Source of the DNA: Pirellula sp.
Lineage (GTDB): Bacteria > Planctomycetota > Planctomycetia > Pirellulales > Pirellulaceae
DNA length: 38,580 bases
Assembly: GCA_025459245.1 (NCBI GenBank)
Contig: JALOQZ010000007.1
Coordinates: forward strand, 1 to 38,580
Direction of reading: 5' to 3'
Numbering within the stretch: the first letter of the stretch is position 1; each line of letters begins with the position of its first letter. The position numbers were made by a program, and so were the translations under genes. The notes beneath the pieces were generated by a model. It worked only from the letters and a program-made list of their open reading frames with translations, made no database searches and was not told the origin of the DNA. This document shows, one piece after another, positions 13,893 to 34,433 of the stretch.

Positions 13893-15164
13893 TCAGTTCT
13901 GACGATAAAGCTTCGCTTTATCGAAAATGTACATTCGACTAATCGTTGGATCTTTAAGATCAAAGTCCTCCCGGTTTTCTGGCGGTATACGGCTGTAGGC
14001 GTCCAATATCTGCTCGCTGGAAGGACGTTGGTTTGGGGCTAAGTTATTAAAGAGGATTTGCAATTGTTCCATCGGCTTCAAACCCGACATCAAAACGATC
14101 GCATCGTCTGAAAGGTTTGCCATCAAGGGATTCACCAAGGTTGCCTGCCGCTCTTCGTCCCAGTTTCGTACCATGTACAAAAAGAAGCCATTGATCAACT
14201 TTTTGATGTCCCGCTCTTTGAACCGGGAATTGATTTCGACGATGGCGGGTTCAAGATAATTGATACTCCAATCCGTGATCGCTTGCTGATCTGCATGCGC
14301 GATAGCTTGCGTGAAATAATAGTCCGCAGCTCGGAAATAGATTCGGCCTTTGAGATGCTGAACGCGGTCTTCAAACGGCATTCCCTCCAAAGCGCGTCTC
14401 TCCGAATTGGCAAGCTGATCCATGACGAGGCCCACTAATCGAACAACCTCTTGCACCTCATCCCCGTTGGGTAGCTCTTCGATTCGATCTTCGAGCATGC
14501 GGTACTTCGTCAGGGATTCGGGATTCATGCGTTGAACGATTTCTCGCTCGCTCATCAAGTGCGCTTGCTGGGCAGGCGAGAGTTGCTGAACCCAGCTAGC
14601 AAGCTCTCGCGTTGTCGTCGGCACATTGGACGTAACACGATCCGCGTAACGGGCTTTCAAATAACGGATAACAATCTTCTCTTCGCTCAAGCGCTTGGCT
14701 ACTTCCAAGTCGTTGACGTCAACAAGTCCCGAGATATTCGCGATCAAATTCAATCTTCGCAGCTCAACTTGGTTCGAAACACCCCGAGCCAAAACACCGG
14801 CAATCCCTCCAACACAGACGGATGTCCCGATGAGAATGGCCAAGTGATATTTCTGCCAAACGACCCGCCACGGCGATGGAACAGCGATCGCTAACGAATC
14901 CTCTAGGGCGGGCGACTCCTTGACTTTCTGAATCACATGCTCGATCGTACTTTGCGTGAACCGTTGATCATGCGGAGTCTCAGGCAAATCATCGAGCAAG
15001 TCGTAGGCGCGTCGCAACTCCGCCAAACGCAACCGAAGAGACTCATCGTGTACCAGTTTCTGCTCCAACCGGCTCGATTCGACAGAACTCAACTCACCAT
15101 CCAAATAGGAAGTAAGCTGCTCGTCGATTTCGTCTGCGAATTGGGACTCGAGATTTGGATTCAT
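13893..15164 (-). CDS. Anti-sigma factor-like transmembrane protein
   Basis: N-terminus ADEIDEQLTSYLDGELSSVESSRLEQKLVHDESLRLRLAELRRAYDLLDDLPE; a single TM (LAILIGTSVCVGGIAGVLA); the start overlaps the ECF sigma stop by 4 nt (ATGA). Confidence 0.75.
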   Translation of the reverse strand: MNPNLESQFADEIDEQLTSYLDGELSSVESSRLEQKLVHDESLRLRLAELRRAYDLLDDLPETPHDQRFTQSTIEHVIQKVKESPALEDSLAIAVPSPWRVVWQKYHLAILIGTSVCVGGIAGVLARGVSNQVELRRLNLIANISGLVDVNDLEVAKRLSEEKIVIRYLKARYADRVTSNVPTTTRELASWVQQLSPAQQAHLMSEREIVQRMNPESLTKYRMLEDRIEELPNGDEVQEVVRLVGLVMDQLANSERRALEGMPFEDRVQHLKGRIYFRAADYYFTQAIAHADQQAITDWSINYLEPAIVEINSRFKERDIKKLINGFFLYMVRNWDEERQATLVNPLMANLSDDAIVLMSGLKPMEQLQILFNNLAPNQRPSSEQILDAYSRIPPENREDFDLKDPTISRMYIFDKAKLYRQN

Positions 15165-15850
15165 TCTCGCGGTGCCTCGCTATTGAATTGGGGCGTTTCA
15201 TCGGATTCCACCGGCGTTGTTCCCAAAGGTGAGCCATCCGACACGTAGGGCTCGAGGAGATTCTTCAGATTGACTCTCGCTCTGCTCAATAGTGATTTGA
15301 CAGCTTGAACACTCATTCCCATGGTATCCGAGATTTCCTGATAACTCATTCCTTCGAACTTACTCAGCATAATCGCCGTTCGCTGGCGTTCCCCCAAGGC
15401 TTGCAATGCCTGCAAGACGATATTCGACCTCTCGCTTCGATCCATCGAACGGGTGGGCTGAAATCCGCTGGGGGCTACAGCCATGTTCTCCAGCATCACG
15501 CCGGATGTCGAAGTATCGGCTCCTTTAGAGAGTTGATACTCTTTTCGGTGGGCACTGTCTCGCAAATGATTCGAGGCAATGTTGTGGGCGATTCGATAGA
15601 GCCAAGTGGTAAACTTCGCGGTGGGGGAGTATGTCTTTCTAGCCTTGAACACGCGTAGAAACACGTCCTGCGCGAGATCCTCTGCCTGCTGGGGATTGGA
15701 AACCCAACCCAACATGAAACGTATAATTTTGCCCTGATGCCGATCGATCAACATCTCAAATGCAACAGCATCATCTTCTCGAACGCGTAGCATCAAGCTT
15801 ACGTCCGGGTCGATGGCCGCCGCATCCGTCGTGTTGGTTTGGTCGCTCAA
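15161..15850 (-). CDS. ECF-family RNA polymerase sigma factor
   Basis: Region 2: FEMLIDRHQGKIIRFMLGWVSNPQQAEDLAQDVFLRVFKARKTY...FTTWLYRIAHNIASNHLR. Region 4: LGERQRTAIMLSKFEGMSYQEISDTMGMSVQAVKSLLSRARVNLKNLL. Confidence 0.93.
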   Translation of the reverse strand: MSDQTNTTDAAAIDPDVSLMLRVREDDAVAFEMLIDRHQGKIIRFMLGWVSNPQQAEDLAQDVFLRVFKARKTYSPTAKFTTWLYRIAHNIASNHLRDSAHRKEYQLSKGADTSTSGVMLENMAVAPSGFQPTRSMDRSERSNIVLQALQALGERQRTAIMLSKFEGMSYQEISDTMGMSVQAVKSLLSRARVNLKNLLEPYVSDGSPLGTTPVESDETPQFNSEAPRE

Positions 15851-16135: not shown

Positions 16136-19100
16136 CTAGAAGAGGCCACCGCCGCCGAAACCGCCACCGCCGCCTAGACCACCGAGTCCTCCGCCACCTC
16201 CGAGACCGCCACCTCCCTGACCGTTTCCAGTCGCACCGGTTGCAATATTAAAGGTGTCGACCGAAATGATGTCGTTGAAGCTCGGTGGCTGCACGAAGCC
16301 AATTCGAACGTAGCGCCGGTCACCGGAGATAACCGCCAGTGGCATCATGAACGCACCGGATGGAATCACCGTGATCTGAGGCTGGTATCCAACCGCTCCC
16401 GGGCCAAAGAATGGCAACCGACCATTATTCAGACCGTTGTTATTCCTTTGAGCAGCCCAATATCGAGCCCAGAAAAGTTCGTAGTCACCCAAAGAACCCG
16501 AGTCGCCGTTGTTGCCCGCCGCCGCCCCGCCGTTGTTCGCTGCATTTCCCGCTTGTTGAGCGAGAATCGCAGCTCCCATAGCGGTCTTCGCCGTTCGAAC
16601 CTTCGCCAAGTGAGCTTCCTCAATCGGCTGAGATCGATGACCTTTCTTCACGTGAGCGATCACGACCGCCATCGGAGCTGATGGCCCCATCTCGACGACC
16701 TGCTGAATCACCTTCTGATCGGGAGTACCGTAGTCGGACAAGATATTCACGGTCACCTTGCCACCCGCCACTTCACCCCAAATCTTCTTGATGATGATCT
16801 TGTAGGCTCCTGCATACCCCTGGCCGCATACATACGACTCAGAGAACCCGTCTTTCGACGACTTGCTCAACGACGACCCGTCGCCCAAATGAACGCCACC
16901 GGATGCTGTGTACGAGTTATTTTGATCGCAGACCGTCCCCGCTGGCTCTTCCACAGAGATGTCCAAGTCGGCTTCGCCGGTCCAAACCACACGGACGACC
17001 AAGTCTCTCGTTCTCGCATCCTTAAGCTCTTGCTCAAAGGTGTAAGCGTTCATCGTTTCCTTGTTTTCCGTCATCCGGATGTAGCAAGCCCGCGCTGCAA
17101 GCAGCGCTTTTTCAATAAGCGGCAAGGCCTCGTCCGACCAGCTCTGACGGAGAACACCCGTCGAAGCCCAACGCATCCCCTCTAAGTCCTCCATATCGGT
17201 GGCAATCGCCAACGCCAAGGAGAGCGCGTCTTTGTTCATCGGGTTGGACAGATGAATGTCTCGCAAGACTTTCAACGCTTCCTTTTTCATTCCAGCTCCA
17301 CTCAAGTATCGTGCGATCTTGATGGCATCCTCCTGCCCAGCTCCATAGTCCAATGCTGAAAGCAAGACTCGTCGGATCGATTGAGGCGGATACTCGTTGG
17401 CTTGCATCGCCGTGCTGAGCGCGTCGTACATCCAAGCCGCTGGCAAGGAACGTCGCATCGCTTCGCTGACCGTATCGACGACTTCTTGGAAGTGCTTGGT
17501 TGCCTCGGCCCCGTTGCCACCTTCGATGGCCTTCTTACCAGCCGACATCTTCGACGAAACCCACTTCGCCAATTCCGCTTCTGCGGAGAGCTTTACGCTC
17601 TCATCATCCGATGCAATCTCATCGAGCAACTGAGAAGGCGACTTGGGTGCTGCATCCGCAGCGGGCGACTTCTTAGGAACATCGTTCACATCGAACATGC
17701 CCCCCATGCCGCCGCCCATACCGCCCATGCCCCCCATACCCATGCCTCCCATGCCGCCCATACCTCCCATGCCGCCCATACCTCCCATGCCGCCCATACC
17801 ACCCATGCCTCCCATGCCGCCCATACCTCCCATGCCGCCCATGCCACCCATCATTCCTCCACCAGCCATGCCGGGGAGAACAGGGATGACAAGGTCACCG
17901 ACGGGATAGACACGGACCACGTTGGCCGAGCTCTGCTTAGTGGTGATTCGCATGACTTCGTCTTCGATGACGTAAGTCAGATTCAATGGCTCCAAAATCA
18001 GCTTCAAAGCCGAGCGGAATGAAACGTCGGCTGCCAGCTGCAAGGTGATGGGTTCTTCCAGCGAGACGGTTTCTTCTTCCAGAGCCTTCTCGTCGGGAAC
18101 GATCGGAATTCCCTGTTCGTCGGCGAATCGCTTGAGAACCGTCGAAAGCGGAGTGCCGTTGAAATCGACATTCACTTTGTTGTCCAACGAACGATAAATC
18201 TTTTGCTCGGTCAGCTTCCCGCCCGAAAGGTCGATAGTACCGTAACGCTCCAACCGTCGGCGGCTCAACGCTTGCCAAACGTCGTGCGGTGGATAACGAA
18301 TAGGTGGCTCATCCACGAACGGAACCAATCCAACTTCGTTCAAGTAAAGGGAGTCGACGAAAGCCCTGTTTCGCTGATTGATGACATCCTCAATCAATCG
18401 GGCATTCGCCGCCATGTTCGACTCGATGTTCGTAACCACATCTACCACCGAATCACGATCCAAGGACGTGATCTGCGGAGCTACTTCAGTATTCGCAGCG
18501 GAATACATTTGCTGCCGCATCAATGAGTCGTATCGATCCACAAGCTGCTTAATGGTCTCTTCCCGTCGCTCCGATTCTGCCAGCAAGCGTTGGGTGGCCG
18601 ATTGAGCAGACCGAACAGCCTCGGTCCTAGCAATCTCTTCTCGCTTGGCTTCCTCCGCTCGAGCGGCGTTCTGAATCGCTTCCGCTACCGTCTTTTCAAG
18701 CCGAACTCGGCTCCCCGCATCCAGCTCCGGTGCCCGTCGAACTTGATCCAACAACGACTTTAGCGAGATCTTGATCGAACCAAAATCCGCGGCTGGTGCA
18801 CCAGGCATGCTGGCGCGCCTCGCGGCGTTGGTCTCCGCCTTGACCTGCGCATCAAGCTGTTGTGCCGCAACGCGACGCAACGCTTCGTCCTCACGCAATA
18901 ATTCGCCGGCATTTGCAAGCTCATCGTATGCGACGCCGGTCGTTCCAAGCATGCTGCCAGGTGCAGCCCCCACAGGAGGAGTAGATCCCGACCCAACGGC
19001 TGGTCCACTTTCCGACGGGACTGCAGGAGTCGATGGCGGAACAACCGCAGGTGGAGAAGCAGGCTTATCGTCCCCAAATGGATCTTGCGCTGGTTGCGAT

Positions 19101-20449
19101 GCGGGCGTTCCAAACGGATCATCTCCAGCCTGGAACGAAATGAATTTCACAATCTTCGGCGCCGCACTCGGTGCCTTCACAGGTTTCTCTTTCGATGGCT
19201 CCGCCCCCTTGCTGCCCGAAGGAGAAAGAGGTGCCTGAGAAGCCATCGCGGCGTCCAAAATGTTCTTCGCGCTCAAACTGTTCGGAGACCGCTTTAACGC
19301 TTCGCGAGCAATCGCGATCGCGGAATCTCGATCGCCAATTCCCAACGCATACTCCGCATCCTTGACCAACTCTTCCGAACTGGACATCAAAACGCTTCCA
19401 AGCGATTTGAGAGCATCCGACCCGGCGGTCGGCAACAACAAACCACCGTCGAATCCAGCCTTCTCAACCACCTTGGGGAGAAACGCTAAATCGGGATTTG
19501 TTCCTTCGGTGCGTACAGACCAATCCAACGAAGCTTCACGTCCAGCGACGATTCCTCGCAACGTTACACGTCCCTCAGCCGAAGCTCCCTTCAAAGTACC
19601 AACCACGATCGAATCCCGATCCGTTCGCATCGGCGGAACCAGCTTGGGATATGCCACGGCAACTGACTCCGGCCAAGTCGCATCGGTCGGCCAAAATACA
19701 GGGACCGTGCACTCTTTCGCCAACTGAACGGCCATCTGCTGATTCGACACACCGGCGATGTTGCGGTGCACATGCACCATGCCCCCCGTGTGATTCGCGA
19801 TCGTCGCCAAAAACTCGACGTCCGCATCCGGTCCAATCGCCATCGCATTGACGGTCGTTCGCGTTTCCCGCAACGTCTGAATCAACGACTCAAAACCTCT
19901 CGGCTCCAACAAATTACAGCGATGAAAGCCATCGCCAATGTACAAAATACTCGCGTCGCTCCCCTCACCCAAAACGGAACGAGCCTTGGTCAACGCGGCA
20001 ACCAAATCGGTCGTCCCCAACGGAACCGTCTGCTTGAGCTTTTCAAGCCCCCCAGCGATCTCCGCGCTGCTAGGTGCCCCCACTCCCAATACCGATGGCT
20101 CAATGTCGCAACTCAACAAGGCGACCAGCGAAACATCCGACAAGCCCGCCAAGACTCGCTCGGCCAACTCCAGCGAATCAGCCCGGAATGCACCGCTCTG
20201 AGAAGCCGACGTGTCGACGACCACCGCAACCCGCCTCGCATCAGCCGGCACCGCTCCCAACTGAGACGTCGTCAAACTCAACGCGAAATGCGTTTGTCCG
20301 CGATCCTCATAAGTAAGCATGCGTGAACTCTGATCCGCTGCCGACGCCGCGCAGCTCCATAGAAGCCCGACGCCAAGCAAAAGAGCTCGATTCATACCAA
20401 GAAACAGTCGCATAACAATTCGCTCCAAACCGGCTCGAATGGATGACAA
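16136..20449 (-). CDS. Giant secreted VWA-domain protein with STN-like domain, Gly-Met repeat and DUF2135-like C-terminal domain (start may be an internal ATG such as [14 protein letters not shown])
   Basis: Signal ([27 protein letters not shown]); VWA ([29 protein letters not shown]); STN-like [26 protein letters not shown]; GGM repeats; [27 protein letters not shown]...[15 protein letters not shown]; terminal Gly-rich tail. Confidence 0.88.
   Translation of the reverse strand: [1437 protein letters not shown]
17698..17872 (-). repeat. In-frame minisatellite encoding (GGM)n / (GMG)n low-complexity tract
   Basis: 9-nt and 18-nt periodic units (CCCATGCCGCCCATACCT on the + strand), encoding GGMGGMGGM... 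in the VWA protein. Confidence 0.93.
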
Positions 20450-23648: not shown

Positions 23649-25130
23649 ATGCTCTGGGACACACCCGCTTTCGATGCCCTGCTCCACTCCTTCTATGTAA
23701 GCATGGGGACCGCAACGCTCAGTATGCTATTGAGCGTTGTCTTGGCATTCGCGGTGGAAGTCATCAAGATTCCCGGCAGCCGCATGCTTCGCACGGCGAC
23801 CATGTCGCTCGTCTTGGTTCCAATCTATGTCCAAGCCACGGCGTGGAGCGCGGGTTTCGGCGACCAGAGTTGGTTACGATGGAATCAAGTGACGGCCGCT
23901 CAAAACCCCACCTATGCGATCTTGGCATGTATCTGGATTCAGGCAGCGAGCTGGCTGCCTCTCAGCTTTCTTTTAATCTCGATCGCCTTTCGACGATCCC
24001 TCAATGAATCCTTTCGAGTCGCCTGGATCGATCGAGGTCTTTGTGCCGCTTTCTTGGGAATCAGCCTGCGCCACTCGATGCCTTGGCTAACTCTGGCTTG
24101 GCTATTGATCACGGTCCTCACGACCAACGATATGGTCGTTACCAATCTGTTTCGAGTCCCCACTTGGACGGAAACGATTTACCAGCAAGTGCAGTTTCAG
24201 AAGACGCGAACCGGTCCGTTGTTGGGCATGGTCTTCTACGCATCAACCATCGCCGTCATCACCGCACTTGCCACCTTCCTGCTGGCAAAGGGAACTCGAG
24301 GTGAGTCGAGCGAACCCTCCCAGCATCCCACTTGCTCTCGAAAAGTTTCGCTCCTTTTTTCGTTGGCTGCATGGAGCGTCGCAGCCTGCTTTATAGGCCT
24401 CCCTGTCTTGTCTTTGGTGATCAAAGCAGGTTGGCATGTCGCGCAAGTAGGAGATGACATTGAGCGAACTTGGCGAATTAGTACCGTCGTCGCTTCTCTT
24501 TTCTCGGCATCGGAGTTTCGCCCTGAACTGCAATGGAGTTTGGCCATCAGTGGCTATTCAACGTTACTCGCACTCCTCCTAGCATTCGCAGGAACGACAA
24601 TTGTATTTAGCGGTTCAACTCGCTTCCTGCTCCATCGCAGCGCGGCCATGATCGCCTTGTTCACGTTTTGTTTCGCTCTCCCCGGGCCACTTGTCAATTG
24701 GTGCATCCAAAAGTCATTGGTCGATCAAAGCGGCTGGATCGGTTGGATCGGCAATGACACACTCGCCCCCCCCATTCTCGCGTTGCAAACTCGGTGCGCT
24801 CCTGTTGTCTTTGCCATCCTCTGGACAGCCGCTTGGAGATGGGAACAACGCTTTCGTCCACTCCGATCTCTCGACGGTTCGTCTTGGACGAACCATTGGC
24901 AAGCCTGGATTCGTCCTCTCACAATGGGTGTTGGGGCCGCTTTCTTTGTGAGCTTTGCCAATCTGGAATCGTATTTGCTAGTTCTTCCACCCAGCGTGAC
25001 GCCTGTCTCGATGCGTATGTTTGAACTCTTGCACTACGGTGTACAAAACAAAGACGCCGGGCTGGCGCTAATGCTGATCCTCGCAAGCTCGCTTGCAACC
25101 TACGGCTTAAGTCGACGCAGCCGCGATTGA
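23649..25130 (+). CDS. ABC transporter permease-like protein (two BPD_transp_1-type halves, Fe3+/thiamine type)
   Basis: About 10-12 hydrophobic segments; first half SFYVSMGTATLSMLLSVVLAFAVEV and degenerate EAA loop NESFRVAWIDRGLCAAFLGISLRHSMPWLTLAWLL; second half SLAISGYSTLLALLLAFAGTTIVF. Confidence 0.68.
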   Translation: MLWDTPAFDALLHSFYVSMGTATLSMLLSVVLAFAVEVIKIPGSRMLRTATMSLVLVPIYVQATAWSAGFGDQSWLRWNQVTAAQNPTYAILACIWIQAASWLPLSFLLISIAFRRSLNESFRVAWIDRGLCAAFLGISLRHSMPWLTLAWLLITVLTTNDMVVTNLFRVPTWTETIYQQVQFQKTRTGPLLGMVFYASTIAVITALATFLLAKGTRGESSEPSQHPTCSRKVSLLFSLAAWSVAACFIGLPVLSLVIKAGWHVAQVGDDIERTWRISTVVASLFSASEFRPELQWSLAISGYSTLLALLLAFAGTTIVFSGSTRFLLHRSAAMIALFTFCFALPGPLVNWCIQKSLVDQSGWIGWIGNDTLAPPILALQTRCAPVVFAILWTAAWRWEQRFRPLRSLDGSSWTNHWQAWIRPLTMGVGAAFFVSFANLESYLLVLPPSVTPVSMRMFELLHYGVQNKDAGLALMLILASSLATYGLSRRSRD

Positions 25131-27763
25131 GACTTGCTGTAGCGCCGAACATAGAACCAAATCGCGACCACTCCGAAGAGCGGGAGCAACCAACCTAAGG
25201 CACTTGGCAGGTTCGGTGCATCGGATTGTTGAGCATTCTCAGGAGCTGTGTACAAATCGCGCAACACTAGCAACGGGACTACTTGCCGATGCTGTTGCCC
25301 CAAGCTTCCGGACATCTCTTCGGTCTTGTAACTCCAGAATCGATAAAGCCACCCCTTGGATGTAAAACGGAATCTTGGAAAACTGATAGCCGTGTCGGTC
25401 AATTCATCGCCAATCGTGCCAGCTCGATCCTGTGACTTTGCCAGCCAAAGCCAATCGGGCAGTGCCAAAACCAATCCCGTTGCCGGATACTCGTGCCGAT
25501 AGACGATCGGACCTCGCTCTGCTGGTATCTCAAAGGTGGTATTTCCGATATCGACCATGCAGTCCAGCTGAAAATAATGGTCTTGCCCAAGCAGCTCTCG
25601 TTGTGACTGGCTATCGACATCAATTTTGGAAATGCGAACGATTCGACCTGTCGTTTCGATCGGTTGCAGGCAAGTAGAATCCCCCAATTCCTTTTGATTT
25701 CGCAATGCCCGCTTCAAAAGACTAGCCAACTCTTCTCGAGCCAAGTCTTGAAATCCGGATCCAGCATTTTCCTGGCTATGCAATTTCAAAAGAGAGAAAA
25801 GGGCGGGCAACTCGGTCGGAGACAGCCCGCGGGGAGGACGCTGCAAGCTCGACACATTCTGCTTCTGCTCGAGCGACCATCCTTGTTCTAACAGATGCCT
25901 TGATGGCGGAGCAATCGGTGGCTGCCACTCGACACGTGCACTCTCCAAATCTGCAGACCACGACTTAGGTAGCCGCCAAAGCAATTGGTCGGTGACGAAC
26001 CTCGTTACGCTTTTTGATTCGCCCGACTTGCGCTTTAGCAAAAAGCCTCTCAAAGAAACAGGTTGCCGCAGTTGTGCAACGTTCCCATCGAATGCGACCA
26101 GCCACTCCCTTGGAACCTGATTGCAATAAACCTCCATCGGCCCTTGCGTAGGTGCATCTTCTTGCTCGCCCGCGCGAGAGGCAATTGGAGCCGGAAAGGG
26201 ATCAACCCGAAGACGATACACAGATTTCAAATCGGATCTTAGCAATGCCCCTAAACCACTCGTCGTTTCAATATCCGTCCTCGGGATGGAGGCTAGTTCA
26301 ATTCTTTCTGCGCTCACGGCGATCCCCGATCGCTCGGCAATCTCGACATCCTCGGTAACACGCCAAGGCGAATGGCCGGCCAACAGAGAATCTACCAAAC
26401 TCTGCAGTCGTTGCGACTCAACGAGAAGCGAACCTATTTCATGGGTGAGCGGACTGTCGGTAGGGCTTTTCGATTGGCTCGCGTTCTGAAGCGATGTCGT
26501 CACGGCGCCCAAGATCGCCTTGTAGGGAGCTTCGACATCCTTAGGCGGCTGCCAAACGGGGATGCTGGGCAAGCTCCTAAGCCATCGTGAGTAAGGCCCC
26601 GATGGTGCAACGACGGATTCATCCGAAGTACGCAGCCCTGCCGCGATCAAAGCGGGTGCTACTTCGCTGCCTCGTTGAGACTGATAAGCGAATCGCTTGC
26701 AATACATCCCAATGACTTCGATGGTATCCCCGGCCTTCCACTCTCGGTCGGATTCATTCTGCTGTTTGGGATTAAAAACGGCGATCGGTTGGCTGCTCGC
26801 ATCGTCTGGTTTCACCCACAACACGTCATACTCGAAAACATCCCAGCCCGCTCTTTCGACTTTTCCATCGCGGTCATCTAACTTCCCAACCGTCCCTCGC
26901 AACTTGATCGGTACCCCCCGAATCGATTCGCTGAAAGAAGACATCAATTGCGAGCTCTGGATCGATGGCACATCATTCCACAACCAAGCCTCTTTGCGCA
27001 ACAATTCGGCTAGCCGTCGCGCGCGACTTGCAGTTCGCAAAAGCGCGATTTGTTCGGAAGGTCGCCAAACGCTGTTATCTTGAAAATCCGCCAACAGTCG
27101 GTGGTCCAGCGCGAGGAGAAAGTCCCTTGCATCCATTTTCCGATCCGAATCTTCATCAAGGACGGACACAAGCTCGCGATACACTCCTTTTGAGGCGTCG
27201 GATTGTGGATCCTCTTCGCCAGTTGCCAATCGCAGCCAACTTTGAACGGTCTCTAGACTGCTATCCCGCCAAGCCTGCTCGGGCGCGTTCGCTTGTTCTG
27301 CAGCGATGGACTTCGTATCCGTTTTTGTATCGACACCAGAACTACTAAAGTGAACCGCTGCAAGCAATTCGACAGTTTGATCCGATGCAGGCTTTAATAA
27401 CTCACTCCACATCTCTATACGTGACTGAAATGATTTGTTCGCGCTCTTTAATCTCAAAAACTCAAATTCAATCAATCGTTCCGCAGAAGCGGCATCTTGT
27501 AGTTCCTGCTCTTCGAACGAAGTCAAGGCGTGGGCATTGGCTTCTGTCGTTTGGATTGCTGATGCAGGAAACAATCCAACCGCTCTACCAACTTTTTCGA
27601 TTTGATTCACATCCGAGGCACGCTGAATCAAAATCACAACGAGAGCTAATAGCATGGCCAACGAAACCAAACGCCGCGTACCTGTCGATTTTTCGTACGC
27701 GATCGATCGCGACTTAGCTTGACTATCCAAACTGTACCATCGTTCTCTCGGTTTTCTCGGCAT
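25100..27763 (-). CDS. Large uncharacterised membrane-anchored protein (N- and C-terminal TM, repeated beta-rich/OB-like segments)
   Basis: Likely ATG at 27763 (MPRKPRERWYSLDSQ). TM LVSLAMLLALVVILIQ and C-terminal LGWLLPLFGVVAIWFYVRRYSKSQSRLRR. PIKLRGTVGKL.../PVSLRGFLLKR... repeated segments. Confidence 0.72.
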   Translation of the reverse strand: MPRKPRERWYSLDSQAKSRSIAYEKSTGTRRLVSLAMLLALVVILIQRASDVNQIEKVGRAVGLFPASAIQTTEANAHALTSFEEQELQDAASAERLIEFEFLRLKSANKSFQSRIEMWSELLKPASDQTVELLAAVHFSSSGVDTKTDTKSIAAEQANAPEQAWRDSSLETVQSWLRLATGEEDPQSDASKGVYRELVSVLDEDSDRKMDARDFLLALDHRLLADFQDNSVWRPSEQIALLRTASRARRLAELLRKEAWLWNDVPSIQSSQLMSSFSESIRGVPIKLRGTVGKLDDRDGKVERAGWDVFEYDVLWVKPDDASSQPIAVFNPKQQNESDREWKAGDTIEVIGMYCKRFAYQSQRGSEVAPALIAAGLRTSDESVVAPSGPYSRWLRSLPSIPVWQPPKDVEAPYKAILGAVTTSLQNASQSKSPTDSPLTHEIGSLLVESQRLQSLVDSLLAGHSPWRVTEDVEIAERSGIAVSAERIELASIPRTDIETTSGLGALLRSDLKSVYRLRVDPFPAPIASRAGEQEDAPTQGPMEVYCNQVPREWLVAFDGNVAQLRQPVSLRGFLLKRKSGESKSVTRFVTDQLLWRLPKSWSADLESARVEWQPPIAPPSRHLLEQGWSLEQKQNVSSLQRPPRGLSPTELPALFSLLKLHSQENAGSGFQDLAREELASLLKRALRNQKELGDSTCLQPIETTGRIVRISKIDVDSQSQRELLGQDHYFQLDCMVDIGNTTFEIPAERGPIVYRHEYPATGLVLALPDWLWLAKSQDRAGTIGDELTDTAISFPRFRFTSKGWLYRFWSYKTEEMSGSLGQQHRQVVPLLVLRDLYTAPENAQQSDAPNLPSALGWLLPLFGVVAIWFYVRRYSKSQSRLRRLKP

Positions 27764-27788: not shown

Positions 27789-30083
27789 TCAACGTTCGTA
27801 TTGTTGGTAGAAACGACGAGCCGCTTCATGGTACGGCAAGCCTTGCCAATTCGCCGCAAGCTCCAACGGAATAAGTCCACTGATGCTCGCTCCAGTAGGG
27901 CTCTGGTGGTAAATGGCTTGCAACGATTTGCTCACCAATCGCGAAGGAGCATCTCTGCGCACGACCAGCAAAGCGGTCGTAGCAAGTGTCTGCACCGATC
28001 CGAGCGTCTCGAGCCCGTAATCCTTCATCGAAATTTCGTAGGGGCGGAACATAGGCTCCTCGAGCGCGAGCATCGCAGCGTTGCTGATCGGTAACATTTC
28101 GAATCCTTCCGCCTGCAGCATGCCTCGTACCCCCTGCTGGCCGACTTTTACCACCACCAAAACGACGTCCGCCTGTTTGCGCAATTCATCTTGAAACCAA
28201 TCGCCATCGATGATTTGGAGCTCGTCGACATCGATTTTGAAATGGGAGAGTAAACGCGTTGCCGCTTGACGGGTCCCTGACGCTCTCGAGCCAAGCATGA
28301 CACGCTTCGAAACAATCTCCTCGATCTGCTTAATTCCAAGCTCTTTACGGACCAGAATATGAACCGCTTCATAAAACAAGGGAGCTACCACTGCCACTTG
28401 ATCGGACCGAACCGCAGACTCTTGCATAATCGCCAAGTGGACCTTGCTCTCCTGCAGTTGCTTTAGATTATCCAGCGACCCATTGGTAGGAATCACATTG
28501 GGGTGCAACCCAGTTTCCCGTTCGATCTCGGATGAAATTTGGCCTGCGATTTGAAAGTACATGCCTCCCGGTGAACCTGACGCGATAGTGACTCTTCGGG
28601 GAAGAGTGTTGTCACGAACAACCTCGACCATGCGCGGTCCAACTAGCCAAAACACGAGCCCTGCGAGCAACATAAAGAGGACCACATTTTGCGCCAACCT
28701 TTGGGACCGCGTCGGCTCCATATTTCGAGTGCCGGAAAGAGCCGCGACGATAGGGACGTTGGAAAGCCAATATTTAGCTTGCCTCCATACCGAAGGGGGT
28801 CGAGCCGAAATCGGTGAGCCTTGGTAGAAGCGTTCTAAATCGTCCGCTAATTCGCGAGCGGTGGCATATCGTCTCGACGGCGATTTTTCCAAACACTTCA
28901 TGACAATTGTATCCAGATCGGGATGAACATCGGGTCTGGATAGACGCACACTGGGGGCAGGTCGATTCATGACTTGCATCATCGTCTGCAAGACAGTCTC
29001 CGCCTGAAATGGAGGCTTGCCAACGAGCAACGCATACAGGATCGCCCCCATAGCATAAACATCGGTCGATGCACCTTGATCCTCGCTCTTCCCTGCAGCT
29101 TGCTCAGGAGACATATAGCTCGGTGTCCCCAAGGCAGCGCCTGTCGCCGTCAATCCTTCATCGACTCCGATTCGCTTGGCTAATCCAAAGTCGGTCAATA
29201 CAACTTCATCTTCGTGCGTGATGAGGACGTTGGCGGGTTTCAAGTCCCGGTGCACGACGCCTTGCGAGTGTGCATAGTCGATCGCGCGCGCCACATCTCG
29301 GACATACCGAACCGCTTCCCGGACGTTCATCGGACCTTCACTCAGCTTTTTTGCCAAGTCGGTACCTGGGACGTAGTCCATCGAAAAGAAATGATGTCCT
29401 TCGTGCTCACCACAATGGTAGATAGTAATGATGGCTGGATGCATCAAACTGCCAGCACTGCGAGCTTCCGCGTAAAAGCGAATGACTTCATCGTCGCTCG
29501 CCAAAGCCCCCGAGCGAATCATCTTCACGGCGACTTGACGATTCAGGTTGGACTGGGTCGCCAAGTAAACGACCCCCATGCCACCGCGACCTAACACCTT
29601 CTCCAACACGTAATCGCCGAAGCGGCACGGAAGCGTCGCTTGGGTATTGTCCAAATTCGGTAGCGCAGAAAAACTTCCTTGCCGAGTGATCGATCGAACG
29701 GGGGGAGGCAATGTCGATTCGTCGGGCGACAAGGACCTCCCTTCCCCCGCGCCGGTTCGTCCAACGGGAATAGTGACCGCATTGGGATCGGCCGAGGATT
29801 CAGGCCCCGACAACTCTTGCCCTTCTGGCTTGTTGGGACCGCTCACGCCTCGGCCGCTCTCGTCGGCTTGGGCAAGCATCGGACCAGCCATCGATTCGAT
29901 CCAATCGGCCGTATCCAACAATTCACTTAACCGGTTCGCGTACTGCGGGTATCGCTGGAGGAAGGTCGCACGATCCTCCGGATTCCCGACGTCGTAACGG
30001 CGCATGAACTCGAGCAGCGCTCGATCCAACTCCAATTCGGAGTCATCGTCAGGTTCATCGTTCATGCGGAGGGTTTCGTCCAA
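27789..30083 (-). CDS. Eukaryotic-like Ser/Thr protein kinase fused via one TM helix to a TAXI-type TRAP solute-binding domain
   Basis: Kinase motifs GRGGMGVVYLA, VAVKMI, HRDLKPAN, DFGLAK, GTPSYMSPEQ; TM NVVLFMLLAGLVFWLVGPRMV; then VTIASGSPGGMYFQIAGQISSEIERETGLHPNVIPTNGSLDNLKQLQESKVHLAIMQE and VSKRVMLGSRASGTRQAATRLL (TAXI-like). Confidence 0.9.
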   Translation of the reverse strand: MDETLRMNDEPDDDSELELDRALLEFMRRYDVGNPEDRATFLQRYPQYANRLSELLDTADWIESMAGPMLAQADESGRGVSGPNKPEGQELSGPESSADPNAVTIPVGRTGAGEGRSLSPDESTLPPPVRSITRQGSFSALPNLDNTQATLPCRFGDYVLEKVLGRGGMGVVYLATQSNLNRQVAVKMIRSGALASDDEVIRFYAEARSAGSLMHPAIITIYHCGEHEGHHFFSMDYVPGTDLAKKLSEGPMNVREAVRYVRDVARAIDYAHSQGVVHRDLKPANVLITHEDEVVLTDFGLAKRIGVDEGLTATGAALGTPSYMSPEQAAGKSEDQGASTDVYAMGAILYALLVGKPPFQAETVLQTMMQVMNRPAPSVRLSRPDVHPDLDTIVMKCLEKSPSRRYATARELADDLERFYQGSPISARPPSVWRQAKYWLSNVPIVAALSGTRNMEPTRSQRLAQNVVLFMLLAGLVFWLVGPRMVEVVRDNTLPRRVTIASGSPGGMYFQIAGQISSEIERETGLHPNVIPTNGSLDNLKQLQESKVHLAIMQESAVRSDQVAVVAPLFYEAVHILVRKELGIKQIEEIVSKRVMLGSRASGTRQAATRLLSHFKIDVDELQIIDGDWFQDELRKQADVVLVVVKVGQQGVRGMLQAEGFEMLPISNAAMLALEEPMFRPYEISMKDYGLETLGSVQTLATTALLVVRRDAPSRLVSKSLQAIYHQSPTGASISGLIPLELAANWQGLPYHEAARRFYQQYER

Positions 30084-30175: not shown

Positions 30176-31669
30176 TTAGCTGGATGTCCGTTTATCTTCG
30201 GAAATCGCCAATGCCAGCGTTGCCTCAAACAGCTCGACTGATATCTGAAACTGGGGCGTTTCGGAACGATGTCTTTTGCAATGCTCTGTAATGAGTCGAT
30301 ACATGAACCGGAAAAGATTGCGGGGAGTCCCCAGCGACTGAAAGGCCGCGACCATCCGCGCCTCACTCAGTCCGCTTTCGAATAACGAACGGGGGCTGAC
30401 AGGAATAGGGGTGTTTGCACAAGCCTTCATTCGAGCAGCGAGCAAGTCGTAGAGGGCCTCGCCGGTCCAATCGAACGAAGGTACCACATTTTGCTTATCC
30501 AACCTGGCTCGTTCGTGGAACTCTCGCGTTTCGCGATCGACGAAATACTGCAGCTCGCTCGGCAGCAACATCTTGATTCCAAAATGATCATGCTTCAGTA
30601 GCTTGTTATCCAACAGCGGCCAAACAAGCAGCTTCATCCGCTCCGCCAAACCATTGACCAAGTCGGGCTCGTCCACTCGATCGACAATGACAATCATCCC
30701 CGGATAGCCAAGCGATCGCAAAAGCAATTGCAACTTTTCCAATAGCGCGTATCGATCGTCGGAACGGTTCGATACTGGCAAGGGCTGCTCATCGAGCTCC
30801 TTGGACGAAAACCGCATCATCAAGCCGCGGAGCTGTCCCGAGTCGCGAGGAATGACTCGTAGATTGCGCACGATTCGCCGTGCAATTCGGAAGTACCGGA
30901 ACCAACGAATGGCATACAAACTCCAAGCGATGGCTAACCCGATCGGGATAAACCACAACATCCGCTTGAGCTGGAGCACCTCGGTTTGGACCAAGAATAT
31001 TCCAAGCCCGATCACCATCAAAGTTCCCAAGATTCCCAGCAATAATGGAAACCAAGTCGAGAGGGAGTAGAAACGCAACTTGGAACGGAGGCGACCGATG
31101 CGATCGATGTGAGTACCGACGGAAGAGCGGTCATAGATCGAAGCCAAGAGCAAAAGGTCTCGCTTCTGACCTCGGTCGAGCGATGCGAGCTTTTCGGTTG
31201 CCAAGTTATGCTCGACAGGCCGAACGGAGGACTGAACCCCTAGAATCTGATCGACCAATGGAGTCATCGCTTCCGAGAGAATCGCGTCCATGTGATCCCA
31301 TAGATGAAGCCCCTGAAGAACCTTTTCCGGATGCGTCTGAACGCGTTTCGAGAAGCGCTGCTGAAAAGGTCCCAGGTAGGCGTTGAAGTCATCCAACTCG
31401 ACGAGATAGACCTTCGAGCCAGGATTCTTTTCGTTATGGCTGGCGATATGCTTCTTTAACTGCAACCGGATGGCGGTCTTCCCCGAACCCTTTGGTCCGA
31501 AAACAATAGAAGTCGCAGGTTGGCTCGCGTCTCCGACAACTTTGCTCCACGAGGGATGGAAGATTCCGGAGATGCAGAAGTCCCGAAAAACAGCGTCGGT
31601 TTGGGCGTCCTCATCGGAAAACGGATTCCGCGTGAGCTGATGATGGAGCAAAAATTCTTGTTCTGTCAT
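30176..31669 (-). CDS. Membrane-inserted P-loop NTPase, KAP-like
   Basis: Walker A VFGPKGSGKTAIRLQL; two adjacent TMs inside the NTPase region (FPLLLGILGTLMVIGLGIFLV, MLWFIPIGLAIAWSLYAI); Walker-B-like MIVIVDRVDEPD. Confidence 0.75.
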   Translation of the reverse strand: MTEQEFLLHHQLTRNPFSDEDAQTDAVFRDFCISGIFHPSWSKVVGDASQPATSIVFGPKGSGKTAIRLQLKKHIASHNEKNPGSKVYLVELDDFNAYLGPFQQRFSKRVQTHPEKVLQGLHLWDHMDAILSEAMTPLVDQILGVQSSVRPVEHNLATEKLASLDRGQKRDLLLLASIYDRSSVGTHIDRIGRLRSKLRFYSLSTWFPLLLGILGTLMVIGLGIFLVQTEVLQLKRMLWFIPIGLAIAWSLYAIRWFRYFRIARRIVRNLRVIPRDSGQLRGLMMRFSSKELDEQPLPVSNRSDDRYALLEKLQLLLRSLGYPGMIVIVDRVDEPDLVNGLAERMKLLVWPLLDNKLLKHDHFGIKMLLPSELQYFVDRETREFHERARLDKQNVVPSFDWTGEALYDLLAARMKACANTPIPVSPRSLFESGLSEARMVAAFQSLGTPRNLFRFMYRLITEHCKRHRSETPQFQISVELFEATLALAISEDKRTSS

Positions 31670-31868
31670 ACCTAGATGCAACCTCTCTTTTTCCGCAGTC
31701 TCCCCAATTTACCACGCTTCCAGAAGGCATCTTGGAAATTTTTCCGGGATTTGCTAAAGGTCGAACAAACCGGTGCGCTTTGCACCGGCATCCGCCCCCT
31801 TCAAGCCAGCGACCGAGCCGAAGGGGAGCGATTCCGCCTTGATTTGGAACATTTGGCAGGAGGCCGAC

Positions 31869-32720: not shown

Positions 32721-34433
32721 ATGAACCAACTCACCAAGCTCACGCAACAACTGCAAACCTTGTTTGCAGGTATGACGCCCCAAGCTCGTGTTCTCGCCGT
32801 TCTCTTGGTCGCGGCGATCGCAGCCAGCGCCGGCATGCTCGCGACGAATTACAGCTCAGGCAGCGGTGAAACTACCTTTCTGTTCGATGGCGAGACTTTT
32901 AGCGAAGAACAATTAAGCCGATTCGATATCGCGTTTGGCACAGCAGGTTTAAAGGGTTGGGAACGCGTCGGGAATCGAGTCCGGATTCCCGCAATCCATA
33001 AAACCGACTTCCTCAAAGCAGTCGCCGATTCCAATGTCCTCCTCGGCGGACTTCATTCGCAGATGGACGAAGCCTTGAAAGAGAGCAACTTCCTCGAGTC
33101 CACTCGCACCACCGAAGCGAAACAACTATCGGCCAAACTGGGCTCGATCGCTCGGTCGCTGGAAACGATGCCTTTTGTTCACAAAGCCTTTGTGACATTC
33201 GACGAAAAGCGAGAGGGCTTTTCATCGAAACGTCCCAAAGTTGCCTCGATTGCGATTCTTCCACGGCATAACAATCCTCTGTCAAACGATCAGTCGCGGA
33301 GCATCATGCAATATGTGCAAAAATCGATTGCAGGACTGGGGGCTGCGGACATCGCGCTGCTAGACCTTAGCACGGGCCAAACTCGCATGGGGGAAGATGA
33401 CCCATTGGTTCTGGAACAAGAACGCTACTACCAAATCAAGAAGCAGCAAGAACAGGACTTGAAACGCCGCGCGCAACAACTGCTCACCGATTACGGAAAC
33501 GTCCGAATCGAAGTCAATGTGGAGATCGACCCCACGCTGGGCAAAGAAACGAGCAATATCAAATACGATCCGAAACCGACCACCGTGCAATCGAGCACGA
33601 CCAAACGGGATGCCGATCTACAAAAGATGGGACCGGGAGGTAGACCCGGAACCGAACCAAACGCTCTGGCCAATCGCAGCGCCTCGATCAGCCCCACTCC
33701 GGAACAAATCAACAAAGAAAAGGAGTCGACCGAAAGCACGAAGCAAGTCGTCGGGAGTACCCTCTCGACAATCCGCGAGGCAGGACTGCAGACCAAACAA
33801 GTTTCATTCTCTGTGCTACTACCCTTTTCCTACTATCGCACCGCCTATTTAGGGGAGTGGCTTCAACTCAATCCGGACAAGAAATCGGAGGACGCCCCCC
33901 CATTCGATGAAGCGACTTTGGCCACTGTAAAACAAAAAGTGGAAGCAAACGTGAAGAGTGTGCTGACTGCCATCGTCCAATCCTCCACCGCAGGCGAAGA
34001 CAAAGTGCCCAACATCACGGTGAGCCACTACGTCGATTTTCCCGGCGAAGAAATCGCAGGCCCTTCGATTATGACGCAAGCCTTAGACTGGTTGCAGCAG
34101 TCTTGGCAATCTCTCATGCTGGCTGCTGTCGCTCTTGCTGCGATTGTCTCGATGCGAAGCTTCGCGAAAACAGTTCCAGCGACCGACAACCGTCCCTTTG
34201 AGAACGGATTTGATATTCCAATCGACGATGCCATTGATCTCAACTTGACCAGCCTGACCGGTGAGGACGAAGATGCCGCCTCAGGTGCATCAGATGGTTC
34301 AGAATCCGGCGAGCCGCCCACATTCAAAACTACAGGCGGCGATTTGAAGAGCAACCTCACCAATATGGTAAGAGAAAACCCAGACGCCGCAGCCACTTTG
34401 CTCCGCAACTGGATCGGCGGAACCCAATCGTAA
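32721..34433 (+). CDS. fliF: Flagellar MS-ring protein FliF
   Basis: N-terminal TM; YscJ/FliF ring-domain-like LFDGETFSEEQLSRFDIAFGTAGLKGW; KAFVTFDEKREGFSSKRPKVASIAI; second TM; C-terminal VRENPDAAATLLRNWIGG (FliG-binding type motif). Confidence 0.9.
   Translation: MNQLTKLTQQLQTLFAGMTPQARVLAVLLVAAIAASAGMLATNYSSGSGETTFLFDGETFSEEQLSRFDIAFGTAGLKGWERVGNRVRIPAIHKTDFLKAVADSNVLLGGLHSQMDEALKESNFLESTRTTEAKQLSAKLGSIARSLETMPFVHKAFVTFDEKREGFSSKRPKVASIAILPRHNNPLSNDQSRSIMQYVQKSIAGLGAADIALLDLSTGQTRMGEDDPLVLEQERYYQIKKQQEQDLKRRAQQLLTDYGNVRIEVNVEIDPTLGKETSNIKYDPKPTTVQSSTTKRDADLQKMGPGGRPGTEPNALANRSASISPTPEQINKEKESTESTKQVVGSTLSTIREAGLQTKQVSFSVLLPFSYYRTAYLGEWLQLNPDKKSEDAPPFDEATLATVKQKVEANVKSVLTAIVQSSTAGEDKVPNITVSHYVDFPGEEIAGPSIMTQALDWLQQSWQSLMLAAVALAAIVSMRSFAKTVPATDNRPFENGFDIPIDDAIDLNLTSLTGEDEDAASGASDGSESGEPPTFKTTGGDLKSNLTNMVRENPDAAATLLRNWIGGTQS

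Follow-up and report, generated by a model that had tools for sequence, protein, structure and literature searches.

A planctomycete kinase–TAXI fusion protein as a probable transmembrane receptor Ser/Thr kinase for an amino-acid-like ligand

The minus strand of the window, by which we mean the whole 38,580-nucleotide stretch of Pirellula sp. DNA analysed here, encodes a Hanks-type Ser/Thr kinase domain, a single transmembrane (TM) helix and a TAXI (NMT1_3) solute-binding domain in one reading frame (ORF 27789–30083). We propose, at a probability of roughly two in three, that the product acts as a transmembrane receptor in which a single protein both detects an amino-acid-like ligand and carries the Ser/Thr kinase, and that an ECF sigma factor is probably linked to it. 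The receptor role taken by itself is quite likely, and the TAXI domain would both sense the ligand and regulate the kinase.

An earlier, sequence-only reading of this DNA had placed the ORF at exactly these coordinates, where it is indeed found; that reading left the strand unstated, and the plus strand across the same region is stop-rich. The listed ORF extends to a TTG codon at 30083. Because the orthologues start at the M of MNDEPDD, the ATG at 30065 is favoured as the start, and the protein is probably 758 residues long as predicted from this comparison (Table 1). Helices are found at residues 7–59 in a model of the 758-residue protein, at low confidence, and the variable linker of the N-terminal segment is probably disordered. 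The full-length AlphaFold model was poor (pLDDT 55) and was set aside as a basis for a mechanism of kinase–TAXI coupling.

Table 1. Features of the kinase–TAXI locus in window coordinates.
Feature	Coordinates	Strand	Basis or remark
Kinase–TM–TAXI fusion gene, probable CDS	27789..30065	-	ATG at 30065; listed ORF extends to TTG 30083
N-terminal segment, residues 7–157	29613..30065	-	Conserved helical stretch, then variable linker
Hanks-type Ser/Thr kinase domain, residues 158–409	28857..29612	-	Pkinase E 7e-52 (Pfam)
Single transmembrane helix, residues 463–481	28641..28697	-	Hydrophobicity; helix 453–486 in full-length model
TAXI (NMT1_3, TRAP_TAXI) solute-binding domain, residues 500–760	27804..28586	-	Pfam, NCBIfam, AlphaFold, Foldseek
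Tyr509, VcGluP Tyr45 equivalent, ligand contact	28557..28559	-	Alignment; Tyr45 role from PMC11574862
Ser536, VcGluP Ser75 equivalent, alpha-carboxyl contact	28476..28478	-	Alignment
Gln554, VcGluP Gln93 equivalent, strongest determinant of glutamate binding	28422..28424	-	Alignment
Glu572, VcGluP Glu125 equivalent, amino-group contact	28368..28370	-	Alignment
Downstream gene, no Pfam family	25100..27763	-	ORF listed to 27880; ATG 27763 is 25 bases past the kinase–TAXI stop
Upstream gene, P-loop ATPase-like	30176..31681	-	Adjoins the fusion only in closest relatives

The kinase half was recovered by the Pfam Pkinase profile and contains every motif listed by the sequence-only reading, namely GRGGMG (residues 165–170), VAVK (184–187), HRDLKPAN (278–285), DFG (298–300) and SPEQ (325–328). 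It has the hallmarks of a Hanks-type Ser/Thr kinase, a Pkinase domain with the G-loop, the VAIK lysine, HRD and DFG. In the glycine loop, the catalytic Lys, HRDLKP, Asn and DFG no variation occurs among the full-length fused proteins (49 of 49). Judged by these residues, the kinase is catalytically intact and its activity is predicted. One hydrophobic helix follows, close to the 28630–28690 segment in which a single TM helix had been expected.

The TAXI peptides quoted previously are present in the translation of the ORF, and the C-terminal half matches Pfam NMT1_3 over residues 500–760 (E 1.5e-27; 97 bits against a cut-off of 27) and NCBIfam TIGR02122, TRAP_TAXI, at 104 bits against a curated cut-off of 84; the scores thus lie above the curated cut-offs of both PF16868 and TIGR02122. 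An AlphaFold model of this domain, built from an alignment with 11 orthologues, was of high confidence (pLDDT 91, pTM 0.89) and shows a two-lobed solute-binding protein (SBP) fold. Its seven top PDB matches in Foldseek are all TAXI SBPs, with TM-scores (TMq) of 0.75–0.82, and glutamate-bound structures (8u79, 1us4, 9ibo and 8s4j) are among the seven. A sequence-profile search recovered the same TAXI structures. Separately, the TAXI domain weakly resembles in fold two Pandoravirus proteins of BFVD annotated as Ser/Thr kinases (A0A0B5J011 and A0A2U7U9Y4; E 4e-5 and 5e-3), matches that hint at independent fusions of binding proteins and kinases.

A search for the same architecture in other planctomycetes, suggested by the sequence-only reading, located the fusion in at least 20 genera of the window's family. 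Fifty non-identical fused ORFs were read from these genera, 49 of them full-length, and all share the architecture, the spacing and the TM helix; they include ORFs from closed single-contig genomes (for example L079, L080, L084 and L088). A scan of named genomes gave 11 loci, all 11 fused, of which ten are complete and one (L008) is cut at a contig end. More broadly, 146 of the 241 genomes of the family encode a TAXI relative, many of the matches lying in frames of 700–830 codons. The fusion might have arisen by chimeric assembly or by the chance joining of two genes, and such errors do occur: the kinase–TAXI ORF of a relative (G887, locus L117, contig C381) was rejected as lying on a chimeric contig, since a single linker residue is all that distinguishes it from that of G611 (L101) from YMSPEQ onwards, and the kinase specified by its 5′ half is unrelated. 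However, an artefact of this kind is refuted for the family by the 50 ORFs with their closed genomes, and we give it almost no weight. Kinase and SBP are not two genes, the frame being unbroken in the window as it is in dozens of further genomes.

The fused TAXI domains form one clade (SH-aLRT 98), and a single origin therefore fits. Two metagenome genomes whose assignment falls outside the family, G848 with two copies and G881, likewise carry the fusion along with an ECF gene. In one closed genome of the window's genus (G467), the kinase–TAXI gene is interrupted by an IS66-type transposase gene (L072:7042-8505), which separates the part for the N-terminal region from that for the kinase domain and is bounded on each side by a short repeat; the kinase–TAXI gene is therefore dispensable in that genome. 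Most other planctomycetes carry instead a membrane-anchored TAXI protein of 430–490 residues with no kinase (L014-L042 and L093-L111). In these proteins a TM helix at the N-terminus precedes the domain; as a rule a second one follows it, together with a charged C-terminal tail. At these loci they are not linked to kinase or ECF genes.

The ligand pocket was compared with that of VcGluP, a glutamate-binding TAXI protein of Vibrio, in which Tyr45 and Gln93 weigh most in glutamate binding, their mutants losing 213- and 990-fold in glutamate affinity, respectively (PMC11574862). Among the fused ORFs the equivalent of Tyr45 is kept in 49 of 50, Ser75 in 48 of 50 and Gln93 in 50 of 50, while Glu125 is kept in 47 of 50 and is Asp in the other three. 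Overall conservation of the fused TAXI domains is low, with a mean column conservation of 0.53 and a median pairwise identity of 34%, yet the four side chains that were mutated in VcGluP rank between 1 and 22 among 274 columns. Retention of these contacts against such a background suggests an amino-acid-like ligand. Three other contact positions of VcGluP are not kept: Tyr200, the second aromatic clamp, and Met201 are both replaced by Val, and Gly203 by Lys. The ligand may therefore differ from glutamate, and glutamate itself is a prediction; overall, a ligand of the amino-acid or glutamate type has somewhat less than an even chance.

These pocket changes would also suit a TAXI domain that has lost small-molecule binding and serves as a module for protein or envelope interactions, and many planctomycete kinases do carry interaction domains on the periplasmic side, such as WD40 and TPR, according to the main text of a survey (PMC11032199). 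The high ranks of the four contact side chains speak against such a module, which we consider unlikely. A receptor kinase whose ligand is a small acid other than an amino acid, for instance a keto acid or dicarboxylate, and whose output is something other than an ECF sigma factor would be a less distant alternative, though still an improbable one. Other TAXI systems are associated with phthalate, butyrate, fumarate and acetate (PMC11574862), and part of the gene neighbourhood described below would accommodate another output. However, Gln93, the main glutamate determinant of VcGluP, is present in only 54% of TAXIs (PMC11574862) and is invariant in the fusions, and an ECF gene is the neighbour most widely kept. 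An amino-acid-like ligand thus continues to be our preferred reading.

The usual partner of a TAXI protein is a TRAP permease, and in one case it is a GltS symporter (PMC12344293). Accordingly, the fusion could be a tethered binding protein for uptake, in which the TAXI domain passes its substrate to a transporter that the kinase regulates; POT and OPT transporter genes adjoining the likely partner ECF gene in the window's genus would be in keeping with such a role. By contrast, the earlier remark that no TRAP permease is visible holds genome-wide, as no DctM match was found in the assembly (82% complete), and DctM is absent from at least 18 fusion-carrying genomes of the genus, including closed genome G467 with its IS-split copy. 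None of the 27 genomes of the genus examined has GltS, whether linked or fused to the TAXI domain or beside it, and comparison of neighbourhoods across loci revealed no recurrent permease gene beside the fusion. To our knowledge, GltS is the sole membrane partner of TAXI proteins besides DctM. The fusion holds the only TAXI domain in the window's genome. With no other TAXI domain and no TRAP permease in the genome and no GltS in the genus, a transport role is therefore unlikely, and we regard regulated uptake as distinctly improbable. The receptor-kinase interpretation put forward by the sequence-only reading is thus supported in each of its premises (kinase, single TM helix, SBP fold and no transporter partner) and gains from the maintenance of the fusion as one clade in at least 20 genera, with catalytic and ligand-contact residues intact.

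The genes around the fusion point to a possible output. In 18 of 24 loci of other genera, and also in three loci assigned outside the family, the fusion is immediately preceded by a co-directional ECF sigma gene (TIGR02984, plancto1 type). In the window's genus no ECF gene is adjacent to the fusion. Genomes of the genus do hold a solitary ECF elsewhere, and this orphan in the window's genome is the reciprocal best match of fusion-linked ECFs in five of five genomes tested, at 47–52% identity. The solitary ECF (L112, L113, L114) adjoins a POT peptide-transporter gene in three genomes (G000, G467 and G480), followed in G467 by an OPT gene. The ECF gene inside the window (15161–15850) was considered as the partner and rejected, matching partner-type ECF at only E 4e-10 compared with 1e-49 for the orphan ECF (G000:C230). 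We conclude that the receptor kinase is probably linked to an ECF sigma factor; that this factor is the direct or indirect output of the kinase is an even call. All 18 fusion-linked ECFs retain, in sigma region 2.2, the acidic DxxD pair whose loss (DAED to uncharged residues) characterises ECF43. The charge-restoring phosphorylation known for ECF43 is therefore not predicted, and the kinase would have to use a different phosphosite or act indirectly.

Other neighbours are more restricted. Directly downstream of the fusion in the window's genus is a gene (25100–27763) for a 926-residue protein with hydrophobic stretches at both ends, a possible operon partner. In several other genera (L083, L086, L088, L090) the genes directly downstream, on the same strand, encode a CHASE4-HAMP histidine kinase and a REC-GGDEF-EAL protein. 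These neighbours suggest a connection with c-di-GMP in the genera concerned and hint at a wider sensory locus. It is these downstream genes that would favour an output other than the ECF sigma factor. The upstream ATPase-like gene and the 926-residue gene were rejected as universal partners as they lie beside the fusion only within the window's genus, and the former is probably outside the kinase–TAXI system. Its product shows a partial match, far below the cut-off, to the anti-phage family NF053860. Elsewhere in the window, 16136–20449 encodes a large protein that combines a VWA domain with a long Gly-Gly-Met repeat and a C-terminus rich in Gly, and 32721–34433 a YscJ/FliF-like (flagellar M-ring) protein.

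These features can be assembled into a working model of the receptor kinase. The TAXI domain would lie outside the inner membrane, and its Venus-flytrap would close on a small ligand resembling an amino acid, with L-glutamate or a compound close to it the likeliest. This closure may alter dimerisation or the juxtamembrane region, and the change, relayed through the single helix, would switch the kinase, which would then act on a cytoplasmic target, with substrate and direction of regulation both conjectural; the plancto1-type ECF sigma factor is the best candidate, and the response might comprise genes for peptide or amino-acid use. More tentatively, and with the odds against the full statement, a glutamate-binding TAXI domain may have been captured essentially once to become the covalent sensor of an ECF-controlling Ser/Thr kinase, founding a widespread planctomycete family that provides a one-protein route from an outside amino acid to transcription. 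In the kinase–TAXI family the fold and the pocket residues of the sensor are known and its candidate ligands are few, and the stimulus of the kinase is therefore directly testable. It would also extend the TAXI fold from transport to signalling, with a probable transcriptional output provided.

No description of a kinase–TAXI or kinase–SBP fusion was found in the open-licence literature. NCBI product names suggest that some actinobacterial kinases are fused to ABC-type binding domains. Transmembrane receptor Ser/Thr kinases are already known, and against that literature it is the TAXI sensor on one that appears to be new. The fusion shares with the TAXI SBPs VcGluP and TtGluBP (PF16868/TIGR02122) a common domain family, the fold and the four main ligand-contact side chains. 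However, the latter are free or lipid-anchored periplasmic transporter proteins, whereas the fusion is tethered by a TM helix to a kinase and is without a transporter partner. The BP0403 TAXI-GltS system of Bordetella pertussis (PMC12344293) likewise puts a TAXI domain to use without TRAP, together with additional domains and a pocket whose Tyr and Gln are conserved. That system is one of transport with the GltS gene linked or fused, whereas the fusion joins its TAXI domain to a kinase, in a genus that lacks GltS.

Among planctomycetes, other membrane kinases are built on the same scaffold of an N-terminal kinase, one TM helix and a periplasmic C-terminal domain, the last being WD40, TPR, DUF1080 or one of several further domains, as set out in the main text of a survey that counts 105 accessory domains in planctomycete kinases (PMC11032199). 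NMT1 or solute-binding domains go unmentioned in that main text, and the supplementary domain tables may list one. The PASTA kinases PknB, PrkC and StkP share the layout of a cytoplasmic kinase, one TM helix and an extracellular C-terminal sensor, but their sensor consists of PASTA repeats that bind peptidoglycan fragments. The fusion has no PASTA repeat, and the Stk1/PknB profile NF033483 matches only its kinase part, below the cut-off. The analogy to PASTA kinases drawn by the sequence-only reading therefore stands for topology only, the closer functional analogue being GlnH-GlnX-PknG (PMC6069109).

In that actinobacterial system a periplasmic binding protein senses Asp/Glu and controls a Ser/Thr kinase (PMC6069109, PMC9769921), which its authors described as a new role for SBPs (PMC6069109). 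GlnH, GlnX and PknG are three separate proteins, a binding protein of a different SBP family, a membrane mediator and a soluble kinase, whereas the fusion unites sensor and kinase in a single polypeptide. For the output, PknS phosphorylates EcfK, and kinases encoded beside ECF genes phosphorylate the corresponding factors (PMC13147305). In PknS-EcfK and PknT-EcfP (PMC13147305, PMC8103513) a transmembrane Hanks kinase is encoded beside an ECF gene, as is the fusion in most other genera. Their sigma factors belong to ECF43, while the fusion-linked ECFs are of the plancto1 type (TIGR02984) with the DxxD pair kept, and the periplasmic region of PknS is described as TPR-rich where the fusion has its TAXI domain.
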